The position numbers and the translations under genes were made by a program. 64,000 bases of DNA from Kaustia mangrovi (GTDB lineage Bacteria; Pseudomonadota; Alphaproteobacteria; Rhizobiales; Im1): positions 1,550,001 to 1,614,000 of the forward strand of contig NZ_CP058214.1 in assembly GCF_015482775.1 (NCBI RefSeq), given 5' to 3'. Numbering within the stretch: the stretch's first letter is position 1; the number at the start of each line of letters is the position of its first letter. This document shows, in pieces, positions 14,150 to 62,704 of the stretch. Below the pieces are notes generated by a model. The model saw nothing but the letters and a program-made list of their open reading frames with translations, was not told the origin of the DNA and searched no databases.

Positions 14150-15478
14150 ATGGCAGACGACATCTTTCACCCCGATTTCAAGGCAGAGCCCTATTGGTGG
14201 GAGTTCGCCGCTCCCGACCCCCGCAATACGGAGGGACCGCCCGCACGCTGCGATGCGGTGATAGTGGGCGGCGGCTTTGCTGGCCTCAATGCCGCGCTCG
14301 AGCTGGCACGGCGCGGCACCGCCGTCACCGTTCTGGAGATGGGGCCCTTCGGCCAGGGGGCGAGCACGCGCAATGCCGGCCATGTCTCGAGCGGCTTCAA
14401 TCTCGGCAAGGCGCCGTCCTCCTCCGAGCGCTCTCCGGCGCTGCGGCATCTGGGCGAGGCCGGGTACGGTGCTCTGCTCGACGAGGCCGCATCCTCCTTC
14501 GATCATCTGGAGACATTGATCGCGCGCGAGGCAATCTCCTGCGACTGGCGGATCCGTGGCCGCTTCGTCGGCGCGCTCACGCCCCGGCACTTCCGTGCCC
14601 TGGCTCGAAAGAGCGCGGACGCGCCAGGCGTCAATATCGTCGAGCGCGCCGACCAGTACAGCGAGATCGCAAGCGACTTCTATCATGGCGGCATCGCCAT
14701 CGAACGCTCCGGGCAGCTCAATCCGGCACTCTATCACCGCGGTCTGATGGAGGCCTGCCGGCGCCAGGGTGTGACGCTGGTGGCGGAATGCCCGGCGACG
14801 GCAGTACACCGCTCGGATGGCGGCTTCCGGGTCGACACCCCGCGGGGCGAGATCCGGACCGACGGCGTATTCGTCGCGACCAACGGCTATACTGGCAGGC
14901 TCGTCCCCTGGTTGCGGCGCCGCATCATCCCGCTCGGCAGCTATATCATCGCTACCGAACCGCTGGGCGCCGAACGCGCCAATGCCTTGATCCCCACCGG
15001 GCGCACCATCAACGACACCAAGCGCGTCCTGAGCTATTTCCGCCTGTCGCCCGACGGCACCCGACTTCTCTTCGGCGGGCGAGAGAGCTTCCGGCCGATC
15101 GACGAACGCGGCTCCGCGCGCCTCCTTTATCGCACGATGCTGCGTGTCTTTCCGCAGCTTCAGGGCGTGCGCATCACCCATTCCTGGACCGGCAACGTCG
15201 CCTTCACCTTCGACTTCCTGCCGCATCTGGGAGCGGTTGACGGCGTGCATTACGCCGCCGGCTGCAACGGCAGCGGCGTCGCCATGATGAGCTATCTCGG
15301 CTACCGCGCCGCGCTCACCATGGCGGGCGGCAACGAGACGAGCGCCTTCGAGCGCCTCGCCCACCCTGCCCGCTGGTTCTATCGCGAGACGCCGTGGTTC
15401 ATGCCGCTCGTGGGGCGTTACTACCAGTTCCGCGATGCCCGGGACCGGCGGCGCGCCGCAACCGGAGATCCGACGTGA
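14150..15478 (+). CDS. FAD-dependent amine/amino-acid oxidoreductase (DAO family)
   Basis: A 442-residue flavoprotein of the D-amino-acid oxidase/PuuB-OrdL group, expected to oxidise a primary or secondary amine in the cytoplasm. The dinucleotide-binding fold starts near residue 28 (CDAVIVGGGFAGLNAALELA). The GASTRNAGHVSSGF segment is the FAD-contacting motif of this group. The C-terminal part holds AAGCNGSGVAMMSYLG. I start at the ATG at 14150, 26 bp after the permease; a longer in-frame opening overlaps the permease and is spurious. Its stop overlaps the next gene's GTG. Together with the importer it suggests uptake and oxidation of one amine. Confidence 0.85.
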   Translation: MADDIFHPDFKAEPYWWEFAAPDPRNTEGPPARCDAVIVGGGFAGLNAALELARRGTAVTVLEMGPFGQGASTRNAGHVSSGFNLGKAPSSSERSPALRHLGEAGYGALLDEAASSFDHLETLIAREAISCDWRIRGRFVGALTPRHFRALARKSADAPGVNIVERADQYSEIASDFYHGGIAIERSGQLNPALYHRGLMEACRRQGVTLVAECPATAVHRSDGGFRVDTPRGEIRTDGVFVATNGYTGRLVPWLRRRIIPLGSYIIATEPLGAERANALIPTGRTINDTKRVLSYFRLSPDGTRLLFGGRESFRPIDERGSARLLYRTMLRVFPQLQGVRITHSWTGNVAFTFDFLPHLGAVDGVHYAAGCNGSGVAMMSYLGYRAALTMAGGNETSAFERLAHPARWFYRETPWFMPLVGRYYQFRDARDRRRAATGDPT

Positions 15479-17808: not shown

Positions 17809-18438
17809 CTACTCGCTTGGGCTCACCCACTTCATGTAGACGGGAAAGCCCGTGCCCTGGAGCAGCGAGACGGTCTCGTAGAGCGGCAGGCCGACAACGT
17901 TCGAATAGGAGCCGTTGACGGCGCGCACAAACACCTCGCCGCGCCCCTGGATGGCGTATCCGCCAGCCTTGTCGCGCCATTCGCCGGACGCGATATAGCT
18001 GTCGATATCGTCGCGCGACAGGCGCTTCATGCGCACCTTGGTCTCCACGACCCGCCGCCGGCGAGCCCCGCGCGGCGTGATCACGCACACGCCCGTATAG
18101 ACGCGGTGAGCCCGGCCCGACAGCGCCTTCAGGGTCTCGCGCGCGACCGTCTCGTCCTCCGGCTTCGGCATGATTCGCCGCCCGATGGCCACCACCGTGT
18201 CCGCGGCCACGACGAAGACGCGGTCGCCCAGATGGCGCACGGCGGTCGCCTTCGACGCGGTCTCCGCCTTCTCCACCGCAAGCCGCGAGGCCAGGGTGCG
18301 CGGCGCCTCGCGCCGACGCGGCGCCTCGTCGATATCGACGGGGTAGAGCAGATCCGGCGTGATGTCGGCCTGCTCGAGCAGAGCCAGACGGCGCGGCGAT
18401 GCGCTCGCCAGTACGAGCTTGACCTGATCGTCCGTCAT
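17809..18438 (-). CDS. maf: Maf-family nucleoside triphosphate pyrophosphatase
   Basis: A 209-residue house-cleaning enzyme that hydrolyses non-canonical or excess nucleoside triphosphates to monophosphates plus pyrophosphate. The N-terminal signature LASASPRRLALLEQ, the catalytic VAADTVVAIG and the GGYAIQGRG segment are all present. It probably belongs to the dTTP/UTP-type (YhdE) branch, but that is a judgement from general appearance. It starts 40 bp after the infA stop and is likely cotranscribed with infA and yacG. Confidence 0.92.
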   Translation of the reverse strand: MTDDQVKLVLASASPRRLALLEQADITPDLLYPVDIDEAPRRREAPRTLASRLAVEKAETASKATAVRHLGDRVFVVAADTVVAIGRRIMPKPEDETVARETLKALSGRAHRVYTGVCVITPRGARRRRVVETKVRMKRLSRDDIDSYIASGEWRDKAGGYAIQGRGEVFVRAVNGSYSNVVGLPLYETVSLLQGTGFPVYMKWVSPSE

Positions 18439-18478
18439 GAGCGGCCCGGGGCGATGATCCGATGGTCTTCGAAGACGG

Positions 18479-18697
18479 CTATTTGAACCGGTAGGTGATG
18501 CGCCCCTTGGTGAGATCGTAGGGGGTCATCTCCACAAGCACACGATCGCCCGCAAGCACGCGGATCCTGTTCTTCCGCATCTTGCCCGCCGTATGGGCGA
18601 TCACCACATGGTCGTTATCGAGCGTCACCCGGAACATGGCATTGGGCAACAGCTCCGTCACGGTTCCCTCGAATTCAAGAAGTTCCTCTTTCGCCAT
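18479..18697 (-). CDS. infA: Translation initiation factor IF-1
   Basis: A 72-residue OB-fold protein that binds the ribosomal A site during initiation. It matches the standard length and motifs: [20 protein letters not shown] at the start, then [19 protein letters not shown] and [13 protein letters not shown] at the end. Its promoter should lie in the repeat-rich region 18698-18804. maf and yacG follow. Confidence 0.97.
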
Positions 18698-18804
18698 ACC
18701 CTCCTACCTTGCATGTCTTGAGCGGCAAGGCGAGAAGATGTGCCTGTTCCGCCGTAAAATCAAGCACCGGGACACAATAAGGTGCAGCTTTTCGCCTTCG
18801 CGCC

Positions 18805-18945
18805 GGCGCTGGCCGGTTTCCCCACAGGTCTCCGGGTCCGGAACGGCGCCGGCCTGCTGCCATGAGTCTCCGCGTTAGGAGCTGCGCCGGCTGAGCTCCC
18901 ATGGGTCTTTGCGTTTGAAACGGCACCGGCCCACTTCCCCACCCG
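18805..18945. repeat. 39-bp degenerate tandem repeat
   Basis: Units at 18805-18844, 18845-18882 and 18883-18921, with a fourth partial unit from 18922. Each starts with GG-C-G-CCGGC (or a close variant) and contains the core C-CATGGGTCT--G-GTT--GAAC, differing at several bases. Unit lengths are 40, 38 and 39 bp. The last unit merges with the left arm of the palindrome at 18923. Confidence 0.75.
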
Positions 18946-19000
18946 GCCACCCACGGAAGTATGATCTCATGGGTGGCCGGGTGGGGGAGCGGGCCGGTGC
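18923..19000. repeat. Long palindromic intergenic element, copy 1
   Basis: 31-nt arms (18923-18953 and 18970-19000) that pair with two mismatches around a 16-nt loop. A near-identical copy with the same loop (one base different) lies at 61093-61170. It begins 22 bp past the phosphatase stop and may act as a transcription barrier, but it has no T-run. Confidence 0.85.
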
Positions 19001-19022
19001 AGTCTGCCGTAAGAGCGAGCCC

Positions 19023-19469
19023 CTACACCACCGGTGCCGCCGGCATGCCGAAGCGGTCCTGGATATGCCGCATCAGCCCGTCGCGCACCTCGCGATAGGC
19101 CTGCAGCCTCTGCTCGCGGTTGCCGGCGATCAGCGTGGGGTCGAGCGTGGGCCAGTACTCCACCGCCACGGCTTGCGTCCTCGTGAGCTCGAGCGCCGCG
19201 TGATGGGCCTCCGGCGTCAGCGAGACGATGAGGTCGAACAGCGTGTCCTCCAGATCCTCGAAGCTCGTCGGGCTGTGGCCGGAGATGTCGATGCCGAGCT
19301 CGTCCATCACCGCGACCGCGAAGGGGTCGAGCTCGCCGGTGTGGACGCCGCAGGAGGCCACGAACACCTTGTGCCCGAAGAAATGGCGCATGAGGCCCCC
19401 GGCCATGGGCGAACGCACCGCATTGTGGCCGCAGGCAAACAGGACCGCCGCTGGAAGGTCACTTGCCAT
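19023..19469 (-). CDS. Low-molecular-weight protein-tyrosine-phosphatase / arsenate reductase-like
   Basis: A 148-residue protein of the LMW-PTP fold. The phosphate-binding loop FACGHNAVRSPMA (C-x5-R, about 12-24) carries the catalytic cysteine and arginine. The typical acid loop residue is probably Asp in TLDPTL. Homologues at this conserved place (between UPF0262 and infA) are annotated either as LMW phosphatases or as arsenate reductases; the sequence alone does not settle which. It follows the UPF0262 gene by 9 bp. Confidence 0.8.
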   Translation of the reverse strand: MASDLPAAVLFACGHNAVRSPMAGGLMRHFFGHKVFVASCGVHTGELDPFAVAVMDELGIDISGHSPTSFEDLEDTLFDLIVSLTPEAHHAALELTRTQAVAVEYWPTLDPTLIAGNREQRLQAYREVRDGLMRHIQDRFGMPAAPVV

Positions 19470-19478
19470 GTCCGGGGC

Positions 19479-19964
19479 TCAGCCTCGCCAGTGCAGGACG
19501 CAGACGAGCGTGAACAGTCTTCGCGCGGTGTCGAAATCGACCTCGATCTTGCCTCTGAGCCGCTCCTTCAGCAGCTCGCTGCCCTCGTTGTGCAGCCCGC
19601 GCCGGCCCATGTCGATGGCCTCGATCTGGCTCGGCGTGGCGGTGCGGATCGCCTGGTAGTAGCTCTCGCAGATCAGGAAATAGTCCTTCACGATCCGCCG
19701 GAAGGGCGACAGCGACAGGCCGATGACCGCACAGCGGTTCTCCTCGCGGTCGGCGATGTCGAAGACCAGCCGCTTCTCCATGATCGCCAGATGTAGCCGG
19801 TAGGGGCCGTTGTCGCAGCCGTCGACCCGGAAATGGTTCTGTTCCAGAAGGTCGTAGATCGCGACCCGGCGCTCGTGCTCCACATCGGCGGAGGCCGCAG
19901 ACAGGCTCGCCTCGTCGAGGGTGACGTCGGCCAGACGGTCCGTGGTGGCGTCTTGTCCGGTCAT
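19479..19964 (-). CDS. UPF0262 family protein
   Basis: A 161-residue alphaproteobacterial protein of unknown function (UPF0262). Recognisable segments are [39 protein letters not shown] and the C-terminal [14 protein letters not shown] start at the ATG at 19964 ([11 protein letters not shown]), which does not overlap hisD; an in-frame ATG at 20024 would overlap hisD by 38 bp. It sits between hisD and the LMW phosphatase-like gene, its usual place. Confidence 0.88.
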
Positions 19965-60205: not shown

Positions 60206-60952
60206 TCACTCCCGGGCTGCGGAGCGGGCCGACCCAATCTCGTCGAGAATGGCCCGCGCGGCCTCCGCCGGGTCGTCGGCGCGGGTGATCGGCCGACCGA
60301 TCACGAGAATGTCGGCACCGTCGGCCAGGGCGCTCGCGGGCGTCGCCACGCGCTTCTGGTCGCCATGTGCGGCGTTTTCCGGCCGGATGCCGGGCACGAC
60401 CGTCAGGAAGGGCCCCGGGACCCGCCGGCGCAGCGCGCGCAGATCGTTCGCGCTGCAGACCACGCCGTCGAGCCCGCAATCGTGCGCCAGCCGGGCAAGG
60501 GTCAGCACATGGCCGGTCGGCGTGTCCTCGCCGCCGAGATTGTAGCCGAGCGTGGTGAGGTCGACGACGTCGAGGCTGGTGAGCACCGTGACCGCGATCA
60601 GCTTCGGGCGCCTCGCCTCGTCGATCTCGGCGACCGTCTCGCGCGCGGCCCGCAGCATGGCCGGCCCGCCGGAGGCATGGACGTTCACGATGGCCGGCAG
60701 GGGATCGAGCGACATGAGCGCGCGCAAGCCGCCCGCGACGGTGTTGGGGATGTCGTGCAGCTTCAGGTCCAGGAAGATCGGAACGCCCGCCTCCGCCACG
60801 CGCTCATAGCCCGCCCGGCCATGGGCGTAGAAGAACTCCAGCCCGATCTTGACGTAGCCGACCGTGCCGGCGAGCGCGCGGGCAAGGCCCGCCGCGGTTT
60901 CGGGATCGGTGGTGTCGAGCGCGACACAGATCGGATTGTCCGGCGGTGCCAT
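60206..60952 (-). CDS. pyrF: Orotidine 5'-phosphate decarboxylase
   Basis: A 248-residue TIM-barrel enzyme, last step of UMP synthesis. The catalytic set is in PIFLDLKLHDIPNTVAGG; other motifs are VALDTTDPETA, VGYVKIGLEFFY, VTVLTSLD and VVPGIRPENA. The ATG at 60952 is preferred because GGGAG sits just upstream; an ATG at 61000 would add 16 residues. It is immediately upstream of trpF, and the two probably share a transcript. Confidence 0.93.
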   Translation of the reverse strand: MAPPDNPICVALDTTDPETAAGLARALAGTVGYVKIGLEFFYAHGRAGYERVAEAGVPIFLDLKLHDIPNTVAGGLRALMSLDPLPAIVNVHASGGPAMLRAARETVAEIDEARRPKLIAVTVLTSLDVVDLTTLGYNLGGEDTPTGHVLTLARLAHDCGLDGVVCSANDLRALRRRVPGPFLTVVPGIRPENAAHGDQKRVATPASALADGADILVIGRPITRADDPAEAARAILDEIGSARSAARE

Positions 60953-61000
60953 GGGTCTCCCTGTCGTCCAGTCGGCGAAGATCTCCGCACGCCCTGTCAT

Positions 61001-61326
61001 ATAGTGCGTGCGTGCGCCTTATAGCAGACCGGCCCGCCCGGGAAAACGGGAGCGGGCCGGGCGCCGGGTGGCGATCCTGTCCAATTAGAACGGCACCGGC
61101 CCACTCCCCCACCCGGCCACCCACGGAAGTATCATCTCATGGGTGGCCGGGTGGGGGAGTGGGCCGGTGCAGCCTGACCGGATAACACGCTAGAGCATAT
61201 TTCACTCAAGTTGGGACAGACCGCTCATCCCGGCGAAAGCCGGGATCTGTCGCCAACTGCCTGAGATCCCGGCTTTCGCCGGGATGAGCGGAGAGGAATG
61301 CCGATTCAACCTGACCGCAATCTGTT
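61001..61326. other. pyrF upstream region with two repeat elements
   Basis: About 330 bp between pyrF and the cyclodeaminase-family gene, both on the minus strand. It contains the second copy of the long palindrome (61093-61170) and a REP-like inverted repeat (61189-61331). The pyrF promoter should lie in the first ~90 bp (61001-61090). Confidence 0.7.
61093..61170. repeat. Long palindromic intergenic element, copy 2
   Basis: Perfect 31-bp arms (61093-61123 and 61140-61170) around a 16-nt loop that is the same as in copy 1 (18954-18969) except for one base. The flanking bases are also similar (GAACG before, AGCCTG after). Both copies have the same orientation. Confidence 0.9.
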
Positions 61327-61331
61327 CTAGC
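61189..61331. repeat. REP-like extended inverted repeat
   Basis: A core of two perfect 26-bp arms (61223-61248 and 61264-61289), each of which itself folds as CCCGGC-GAAA-GCCGGG. Outer flanks also pair imperfectly (GCTAGAGCATATT at one end, complement of GCTAGAACAGATT at the other). Elements built on this core are widespread in alphaproteobacterial intergenic DNA. Its right end overlaps the stop codon of the next gene. Confidence 0.75.
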
Positions 61332-62289
61332 CGGCCACGCGCTCGTGGATGAGCATGGCTCCGGCGAGATCCTCGAGCGCGGCACCGACCGACTTGAAGA
61401 CCGTGATCTCCTCCTCGCTCTCGCGGCCACGCGAACGGCCAGCCACGAGATCGAACAGATCCGCGCGGATCCGGTCCTCGCTGAGCGCGCCGGAGCGGAC
61501 CGCCTGCACGATATCGCCGGCCTCCGACAGCGCCCCCTCGCGCGTGTCGACGAAGACCGAGCCGCGCCGCATCGCCTCGTCGTCGCTCTCGCGCAGCTCC
61601 GGCTTGAACGCGCCGACGAGATCGAGATGGGCGCCGGGCTTCAGCCATGCGCCCTCCACCAGCGGACGGTCGGACATGGTCGCGCAGGACACGATGTCGG
61701 CCTCGCCCACGGCGGCGGCGAGATCGCCGCACATCTGCGCCTCGAAGCCCTCCCGGCCGAGTTCGGCGGCGAGTTCGGCCGCCTTCTCCCGCGTGCGGTT
61801 CCACACCGAGACCCGCCGGATCGGGCGGACGGCGGCATGGGCGCGCACGAGATGGCCGGCAAGGGCGCCCGCGCCCACCATGACCATGGTGTCGGCGTCC
61901 TTGCGGGCGAGATAGTCGGCGGCGAGCGCGGAGGCGCAGGAGGTGCGCCGCACGGTCAGTTCCACCCCGTCGATGATCGCGACCGGCGCGCCGGTCTCGC
62001 CCGAGATCAGGAAATAGGAACCCTGGATGCTCGGCCGTCCGGCGGCGGGATTGTCGGGGAACACGGTGAGCACCTTGAGGCCGATGAAGCCGTCGCCGGC
62101 CGCGGCGTCGGAGAAGTCCGACCAGGCGGGCATGAGCAGCAGCGTTGCCTCCGGGTGGCCCGCGCGCTCGACCCCGTGATGATGGCGCAGCGGCGCCACG
62201 ATCCCGCTCGCGAACCCCTTGCGCAACGCCTCCACCATGTCGCCATAGCTGACATGGCGGCGGATTTCCTCTGCCGAAATGACCTGCAT
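61327..62289 (-). CDS. Ornithine cyclodeaminase / mu-crystallin family protein
   Basis: A 320-residue NAD(P)-binding protein of the ornithine cyclodeaminase/alanine dehydrogenase (Archaeglobus type)/mu-crystallin family. The substrate domain has HHHGVERAGHPEATLLLMPA; the Rossmann motif is MVMVGAGALAGHLVRAHAAV (about 125-144), followed by RVSVWNRTREKA. The ligand (ornithine, alanine, or an imine) is not clear. The ATG at 62289 has GAAGGGGAA upstream. The TAG stop lies within the end of a REP-like repeat. The usual neighbours lapA and ihfB follow upstream. Confidence 0.85.
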   Translation of the reverse strand: MQVISAEEIRRHVSYGDMVEALRKGFASGIVAPLRHHHGVERAGHPEATLLLMPAWSDFSDAAAGDGFIGLKVLTVFPDNPAAGRPSIQGSYFLISGETGAPVAIIDGVELTVRRTSCASALAADYLARKDADTMVMVGAGALAGHLVRAHAAVRPIRRVSVWNRTREKAAELAAELGREGFEAQMCGDLAAAVGEADIVSCATMSDRPLVEGAWLKPGAHLDLVGAFKPELRESDDEAMRRGSVFVDTREGALSEAGDIVQAVRSGALSEDRIRADLFDLVAGRSRGRESEEEITVFKSVGAALEDLAGAMLIHERVAG

Positions 62290-62371
62290 GCTTCCCCTTC
62301 GGATGGCTGTGGCCGCCTGGACCGGACCGGATGACGGGCTCCTGCCGCACGCGCGGCGGGGCCGCTGCGGC

Positions 62372-62704
62372 CTAGTCGCGGGATGTGAGTGAGTGGCCGG
62401 AGGCCTCGCCGGCATGGCGGCCGGAGCCCTGCCCGGACTTGAGCGTGCGGACCTCCGCCTCCGCGCGGCGCGCGGCCTTGCGCCACTTGCCCTGGGCGAA
62501 CCAGGCACTCGCCCCGCCGATCAGCATGCCGAGCACGATGGAGGCCAGCAGCAGCGCATAGAGCGGCAGCGAGACGGAGAACCACGGATCGGTCGTGGAA
62601 AAGGGATCGAGCGAGAAGGTCACCCATTCCCTGTTGGCCACCGCCACCACGATGATGATCAGCGCGGCGGGAACGCCGACGATCCAGGACACTGTTCGCT
62701 TCAC
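62372..62704 (-). CDS. LapA domain membrane protein
   Basis: A 110-residue protein with two helices (IVGVPAALIIIVVAVANREW and LYALLLASIVLGMLIGGASA) enclosing the LapA/DUF1049 motif WVTFSLDPF, then a basic cytoplasmic tail. LapA-type proteins in other bacteria work with LapB in lipopolysaccharide assembly control. In Rhizobiales a gene of this type lies between ihfB and trpF, as here apart from the pyrF and cyclodeaminase genes. Confidence 0.85.
   Translation of the reverse strand: MKRTVSWIVGVPAALIIIVVAVANREWVTFSLDPFSTTDPWFSVSLPLYALLLASIVLGMLIGGASAWFAQGKWRKAARRAEAEVRTLKSGQGSGRHAGEASGHSLTSRD

Follow-up and report, generated by a model that had tools for sequence, protein, structure and literature searches.

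A REPIN consists of two inverted halves that together form one long hairpin. The element described here has that layout and, as REPINs are, is non-autonomous mobile DNA (for REPINs and RAYTs see PMC3116915, PMC2817692). GTAG and CGTC REPs, too, are palindromic and dispersed, lie mostly in convergent and tandem gaps near the 3' ends of genes and, where they are of the GTAG kind, often bring a TAG stop with them (PMC3733652); the present element shares these traits, down to the ability to supply the stop. The REPs of that account carry an unpaired tag, with a stem of 8-9 bp in the CGTC families, whereas the element is untagged (comparison by eye of the 36-row alignment introduced below finds neither GTAG nor CGTC at the foot of the stem) and has a stem of 31-35 bp within a composite of about 120-190 bp.

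A second parallel is Br-REP1 of Bradyrhizobium, a repeat of three stem-loops that lies where the 3'-UTRs of convergent genes overlap, has about 200 sites and is far more numerous in some species than in related ones (PMC5082802). Like Br-REP1, the element is an alphaproteobacterial repeat at convergent gene ends, unevenly represented among related species. The central consensus given for Br-REP1, CCGGAATCTCGAGATTCCGG, is however much shorter, and by eye its sequence is unrelated to the core of the element, GGGTGGYYGGGNGGGGGAGCGGGC (PMC5082802). The RIME and Sm repeats of Rhizobium and Sinorhizobium (cited in PMC2245857) are, as the element is, intergenic alphaproteobacterial mosaic repeats.

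By its behaviour the element groups with the REP/RIME-like mobile palindromes, and no named family agrees with it on all the defining features tested; no paper naming this palindrome family was found among those listed by searches of the open-access literature. The reading I favour, and hold to be reasonably probable, is that it is a non-autonomous, REP/RIME-like mobile palindrome that inserts at gene ends and acts as an RNA hairpin, moved by an enzyme that is probably not a Y1/RAYT transposase.

Anatomy and neighbours of the two window copies

The window, that is, the whole stretch of 64,000 nt from Kaustia mangrovi analyzed here, contains two copies of the element. Their parts and neighbours are given below; the gene names are presumptive, recognised from the translations.

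18479..18697, minus strand: infA-like gene, its start facing copy 1
18819..18944, plus strand: three degenerate tandem half-units (18819-18860, 18861-18899, 18900-18944), running into copy 1
18923..19000, plus strand: core palindrome of copy 1 (arms 18923-18953 and 18970-19000, loop 18954-18969)
19023..19469, minus strand: low-molecular-weight protein tyrosine phosphatase-like gene, its stop codon (19023-19025) adjoining copy 1
60206..61000, minus strand: pyrF-like gene, its start facing copy 2
61074..61092, plus strand: left outer arm of copy 2 (..GATCCTGTCCAATTAGAAC)
61093..61170, plus strand: core palindrome of copy 2 (arms 61093-61123 and 61140-61170, loop 61124-61139)
61171..61193, plus strand: right outer arm of copy 2, ending in CTAG (AGCCTGACCGGATAACACGCTAG)
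61327..62508, minus strand: ornithine cyclodeaminase-like gene, its stop facing copy 2

Each core spans 78 nt, two 31-nt arms around a 16-nt loop. The preliminary description took the two for palindromes with common arms and a common loop, and so they proved: they are 95% identical over 88 nt, and their loops differ by a single base. The arms of copy 2 are complementary at all 31 pairs and those of copy 1 at 29 of 31 positions, the departures being one A-C and one T-G. As RNA, stretches of 118 nt are predicted to fold at -82.5 kcal/mol (z -8.9) for copy 1 and -89.1 kcal/mol (z -10.5) for copy 2, energies reached by none of 200 shuffles in either case. The CTAG that closes the right outer arm of copy 2 is common to some other copies. 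The half-units beside copy 1, each an arm plus an outer tail (about 38-45 nt), have a mean column identity of 72% and went unreported by Tandem Repeats Finder; other copies in the genome, too, have half-units of this kind at their flanks.

The same description placed both palindromes in intergenic DNA directly beside a gene; their context and their distances from stop codons support an intergenic position at gene ends. About 20 nt separate copy 1 from the end of the phosphatase-like gene, and 223 nt from the called infA start, and copy 2 lies 154 nt from the ornithine cyclodeaminase-like stop. The gap between the phosphatase-like and infA genes measures 325 nt here; in the 15 relatives with both genes in the retrieved locus it measures 90-199 nt (11 relatives) or 254-1157 nt (4 relatives). 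At eight other loci, including those of three genomes of the same family, infA does not adjoin the phosphatase-like gene. Relatives are too diverged in sequence at the site of copy 1 to define a junction. In a genome of a different family (G024, locus L289), this phosphatase-like gene is likewise followed, past its stop codon, by what is by eye a relative of the element.

Beside copy 2, at 61221-61291, there is a second palindromic pair, with 28-nt arms, a 15-nt spacer and stems of the form ATCCCGGC-GAAA-GCCGGGAT. It resembles a head-to-head dimer of CGTC-type REPs (8-bp stem, 4-nt loop); its tag, however, reads CGCTC.

Distribution and structure of the larger element

From two copies in 64 kb the preliminary description had expected many in the genome. 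The 4.63-Mb chromosome holds 42, the union of 40 found by blastn and 40 found by a covariance model built from 36 of the blastn copies, with 38 common to both; at that density about 0.6 would be expected in the window, which with two copies is thus richer than average. Eighteen of the 40 blastn copies fall within 600 kb (2.5-3.1 Mb), and none of 20,000 uniform simulations was as extreme. The sign of the GC skew changes between 2.40 and 2.63 Mb (20 sampled stretches of 8 kb), so the cluster may be origin-proximal.

In the order to which the window belongs, matches (E <= 1e-5) were found in 11 of 199 genomes, this one included, distributed over 7 genera, and several of the 11 have at least 23 matches each. 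None of the three genomes of the same family has the element, either in that search (E 1e-5) or by blastn at 1e-9. Several relatives in the Sphingomonas group have dozens of matches apiece. A two-arm search pattern allowing loops of 6-20 nt identified at least 117 stretches in public genomes. Among the 80 titles listed, 49 are Sphingomonadales and others are Roseospira, Rhodospira, Rhodospirillales, Pelagibius, Kiloniellales, Minwuia, one Acetobacteraceae record and unnamed Alphaproteobacteria; two titles (one Bacillus, one Mesoflavibacter) are probably mislabelled. The pattern also occurs in 20 stretches of viral contigs, some of which duplicate genome loci (L241 = L163, L247 = L239, L253 = L192) and two of which (L244 and L254) look identical, while blastn found 12 places in three plasmid records. 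An exact 45-nt pattern from both window copies has no match in public genome contigs, which may omit this genome. The only Rfam match in the window at the gathering score is a tRNA, and on nine element loci all listed matches fall below the gathering score, most of them microRNA precursors, such as any long hairpin gives. The contig end at positions 1-220 of L098 is an inverted duplicate centred on a copy of the element, probably a fold-back assembly artefact; palindromes such as this may break assemblies.

The stem was assessed on an alignment (A1) of 36 of the 40 blastn copies, the remaining four (L036, L040, L041, L042) being partial or diverged. Under the full structure of 31 pairs, 95.8% of its cells pair. 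Both sides have changed at 7 of the 31 pairs, in 16 cells, as against shuffled means of 2.7 and 3.8, and neither figure was reached in 500 shuffles; when the partners are slid by 1-3 columns, only 1-4 pairs have changes on both sides. The lower 8 bp of the stem (CGGCACCG and variants), which the search pattern leaves unconstrained, are perfectly paired in 56 of the 109 outside copies with full 30-nt flanks, in 14 different sequences, while shuffling gave a mean of 16 and a maximum of 26 in 500. Covariation of this kind is by itself no proof of a role in RNA, since templated correction of a quasi-palindrome, acting on DNA, can yield the same result.

Turnover within the palindrome is visible in two orthologous copies, G237a and G266a. 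The loop of one is the inverse of the other's (18 of 19 positions agree as reverse complement, 2 of 19 directly), and two positions in the arms differ with compensation. The G266 copy has in addition four uncompensated, unpaired positions, so pairing is not kept everywhere. The preservation of pairs may therefore reflect processing of DNA as well as selection on RNA. In another pair of copies (G237b 14903-14982 and G279b 173-252; L363 and L362), the ends of the loop agree while the six bases in its middle (GGATAC / GTATCC) seem to be reversed, by eye a nested flip.

Measured from one pattern arm to the other, loops are 14-20 nt long. Their sequence is conserved in either orientation, with a mean of 10.4 of 16 positions agreeing with a consensus chosen from the same data, as against 6.7 for shuffled loops. 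Outside copies use the two orientations about equally, 44 and 52 of 109 as judged against one consensus. One arm contains a four-run G motif in 33 of 36 copies of this genome and in 9 of the 10 best copies from other genomes. A simple structure of two inverted REPs was considered and rejected: single arms are C- or G-rich and by eye have no evident hairpin of their own.

Compared across copies, the element is a strongly conserved giant hairpin between more variable outer arms, some with little accessory hairpins of their own and many with TAG.. or TGA.. at the end. Predicted folds flank the core with two small hairpins, one to the left and one to the right, in some Sphingomonas copies (L128, L181, L188), a hairpin on one side only in L166, and one extended stem in L173 and L168. 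In L210 complementarity extends outward from the core over 29 of the following 30 positions. In Kaustia the outer arms form a mosaic in which the same types recur to the left and to the right of the core; several copies have outer ends of the CTAGAGCG type, and L066 is apparently a core-less derivative.

It is conceivable that all this is purely selfish or neutral DNA, whose position at gene ends and near-perfect stem come only from tolerance and from quasi-palindrome DNA repair. The inverted loop of the orthologues, the tandem half-units and the core-less L066 point to active processing of DNA, and the copy shared by G266 is decaying in one arm. Such an account sits less well with a core conserved in records of several orders and a loop conserved in both orientations, nor does it foresee that the element recurs at identical junctions of several phage-type clusters, although that may reflect shared descent. 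I consider the account somewhat unlikely.

Position at gene ends and sites with and without the element

Gene context was taken from a simple codon-usage caller checked only against obvious genes of the window. Forty copies in the Kaustia genome lie in 17 convergent, 19 tandem and 4 divergent gaps, as compared to 12 convergent, 39 tandem and 26 divergent among background gaps of at least 90 nt. Their median distance is 24 nt to a stop codon and 116 nt to a start codon. The outside set comprises 111 of the 117 stretches, six under 4000 bases being left out, and its background gaps come from the same loci. Here the medians are 25 nt and 83 nt, and 32 copies are in convergent gaps, 56 in tandem and 8 in divergent ones, while 13 lie at edges and 2 were called inside genes. 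The divergent copies in both sets and the two intragenic calls are counter-instances to placement at gene ends, and the placement itself may be merely what selection tolerates.

TAG is used at 21 of 41 gene ends within 70 nt of a copy in this genome but at 34 of 142 in the background; at outside loci the excess is weaker (46 of 138 versus 204 of 840, most of this background coming from the loci themselves). Often the outer end of the element, TAG.. or TGA.., is the stop codon itself. In one layout the element opens with TAG-AGCGTTTTCC.., 17-23 nt from the core, and in another with TGA-GAGYCTGTTT.., 32-41 nt from the core; other layouts also occur. The provision of a stop codon is not new in kind, since it has been described for GTAG REPs (PMC3733652).

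Closely related genomes offer sites to compare. In the genus of Sphingomonas sp. R647, 26 copies were seen, and ten sites have a comparator. At nine of the ten, one relative or more is without the element, and two sites are filled in two genomes. Some sites without the element have up to 159 nt of other sequence between the flanks; at one, the relative has a CGTC-like repeat instead, and at another a single arm is left. The cleanest cases are L193, L128 and L184. L193, in R647, lies between convergent genes that overlap in relatives, and the site is empty in five of five. L128 lies upstream of a gene that is presumably rplM and is empty in three of five relatives. The closest of these reads ..CAATAGGGTATC.. 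where the filled site reads ..CGCTAG[element]CCAATAAGGTATT..; the remaining two have a different gene upstream and no visible element at that place. At the site of L184, two relatives have an overlapping CTAG or TTAA stop, and a third has unrelated sequence.

Since nine of the ten comparable sites lack the element in some relative, several of them as clean empty sites, the palindrome is, on the evidence of sequence comparison, a mobile element for which single sites have both filled and empty alleles. Duplications of the target are short and vary from site to site: TCA/TCAC, TA and TAG/TAA occur, and some sites have no visible duplication. Duplication of TA is compatible with L128 and L184 and is not seen at L193, while G237a has TCA/TCAC. 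The element inserts at or beside stop codons, including those of convergent genes with overlapping stops, and then supplies a new stop. Individual sites exhibit such insertion, and the distance statistics argue for its generality.

The empty sites also bear on whether the palindrome might be an immobile, vertically inherited 3'-UTR structure, such as a Rho trap or a bidirectional terminator. Placement after stop codons, the excess of convergent gaps, the conserved stem and the two sites filled in two genomes each are what such a structure would produce. Clean empty sites in relatives contradict it as a complete account. The restriction to 11 of 199 genomes of the order, with none of three in the same family, and the lack of a T-run also speak against it. 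Moreover, five copies in viral contigs separate capsid from head-tail adaptor genes; in a working cluster, strong termination at that point would come at a cost. I judge an immobile structure highly improbable, though it could still describe what the element does after insertion.

Mobilising enzyme and possible role in transcripts

The one suggestion of the preliminary description that failed was a linked REP-associated transposase (RAYT). The corresponding family, PF01797 (Y1_Tnp), has no match in the Kaustia genome (G000) at E 0.001, and in this respect the element is unlike REPIN/RAYT systems. Y1_Tnp matches occur in 11 of 24 element-bearing genomes (G000 counted), 10 of the 11 above the family cut-off. 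Of the 14 matches, eight loci were retrieved, and none of the eight has the element in its flanks according to a profile that finds 40 of 40 copies in this genome. The draft genome of R647 (G201) has no Y1_Tnp match, despite insertions at sites that are empty in its relatives. A link to RAYT was therefore rejected for the Kaustia genome.

That the element is nonetheless a REP or REPIN moved by a RAYT (Y1 HUH) transposase is a view that draws on its palindromic, multicopy and stop-codon-adjacent nature, its mosaic flanks, the Y1_Tnp matches in some carriers, and the precedent of REPs near gene 3' ends, among them GTAG REPs supplying TAG stops (PMC3733652). Besides the absence of Y1_Tnp matches from the Kaustia and R647 genomes and the eight loci without the element, the missing tag and a stem far longer than that of the CGTC families (PMC3733652) make it improbable. 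The enzyme that moves the element is probably not a Y1/RAYT transposase.

Six loci in the Kaustia genome (L077, L080, L083, L084, L087, L090) contain a second repeat, at most about 110 nt long, with the sequence CTAGAGCGCTTTCAGGAAAAGTGG.. and in some copies also ..GAAATGCGCTCTAG. I take it to be RIME-like. Its outer ends, TAGAGC..GCTCTA (CTAGAGC..GCTCTAG in the longer form), are those of the palindrome family, but its body is different. The common ends hint at one common enzyme.

A candidate for such an enzyme may be sought among the DDE-type insertion sequences. IS630 prefers CTAG targets, and CTAG is scarce inside genes, so a preference for CTAG would steer an element to stop codons. The palindrome might thus be the miniature transposon of an IS630-like element with TA/CTAG targets. 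L210 begins and ends CTAGAGC..GCTCTAG, the CTAGAGCG-type ends of several Kaustia copies and the ends of the second repeat are of the same kind, and the junctions of L184 (CTAG -> GTAG..CCTA) and L128 (ATAG -> CTAG..ATAA) are compatible with this proposal. However, many Sphingomonas copies end in TGA, not TA; the duplication at G237a/G266a is TCA/TCAC, that at L193 is unclear, and no transposase is linked to the element. The proposal is plausible but, on balance, unlikely.

Whatever moves it, the palindrome is not an intrinsic terminator, a candidate rejected for want of a T-run after the stem, just as the preliminary description had argued that it was no plain terminator. TTTT is found within 12 nt after the 3' arm in none of the 36 aligned Kaustia copies, the maximum over their 72 ends is 5 T in 10 nt, and a scan of 18300-19700, around copy 1, gave nothing resembling a terminator.

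The copies in viral contigs provide another view of possible function. Many of the 21 that were read lie in structural clusters: three after a portal gene and two before one, five between the genes for major capsid and head-tail adaptor (L246, L248, L252, L258, L260), three before a major tail gene and one after GTA-gp10, with seven elsewhere or unassigned. L252 has a second copy of the element after the portal gene. One neighbour matches the Pfam GTA-gp10 tail tube family, and the clusters seem to resemble gene transfer agents. Recurrence at the same junctions may be due to shared descent. Lying between cistrons, the element is unlikely to be a strong terminator; the positions would fit a hairpin that protects or tunes the message, as reported for REPs (PMC5082802).

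Under the favoured reading, that of a mobile palindrome acting as an RNA hairpin at gene ends, the transcript of the upstream gene, on either strand, would contain a stem too stable for easy unwinding. Lacking the U-tract of intrinsic termination, that stem would most likely block 3'-to-5' exonucleases and keep convergent transcripts apart. A more ambitious version can be imagined, though I think it quite unlikely: a class-wide mobile RNA/DNA hairpin, targeted to stop codons themselves by a non-Y1 enzyme shared with RIME-like repeats, that tunes expression between cistrons (e.g. of portal, capsid and adaptor genes in GTA-like clusters), with a putative G-quadruplex in one arm and an invertible loop serving as a switch.

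What comparison adds to the view from a single genome is a wide distribution, a larger composite element with accessory hairpins, a stop codon at its outer end, and empty sites. If dozens of copies per genome are typical of carriers then, by extrapolation, thousands of genes would end in this hairpin. If insertion at stop codons indeed proceeds without RAYT, then alphaproteobacteria would possess an unrecognised mobilising system. Finally, the filled and empty alleles in close relatives amount to natural experiments on how a 3' hairpin affects an mRNA, an old question for REP elements.
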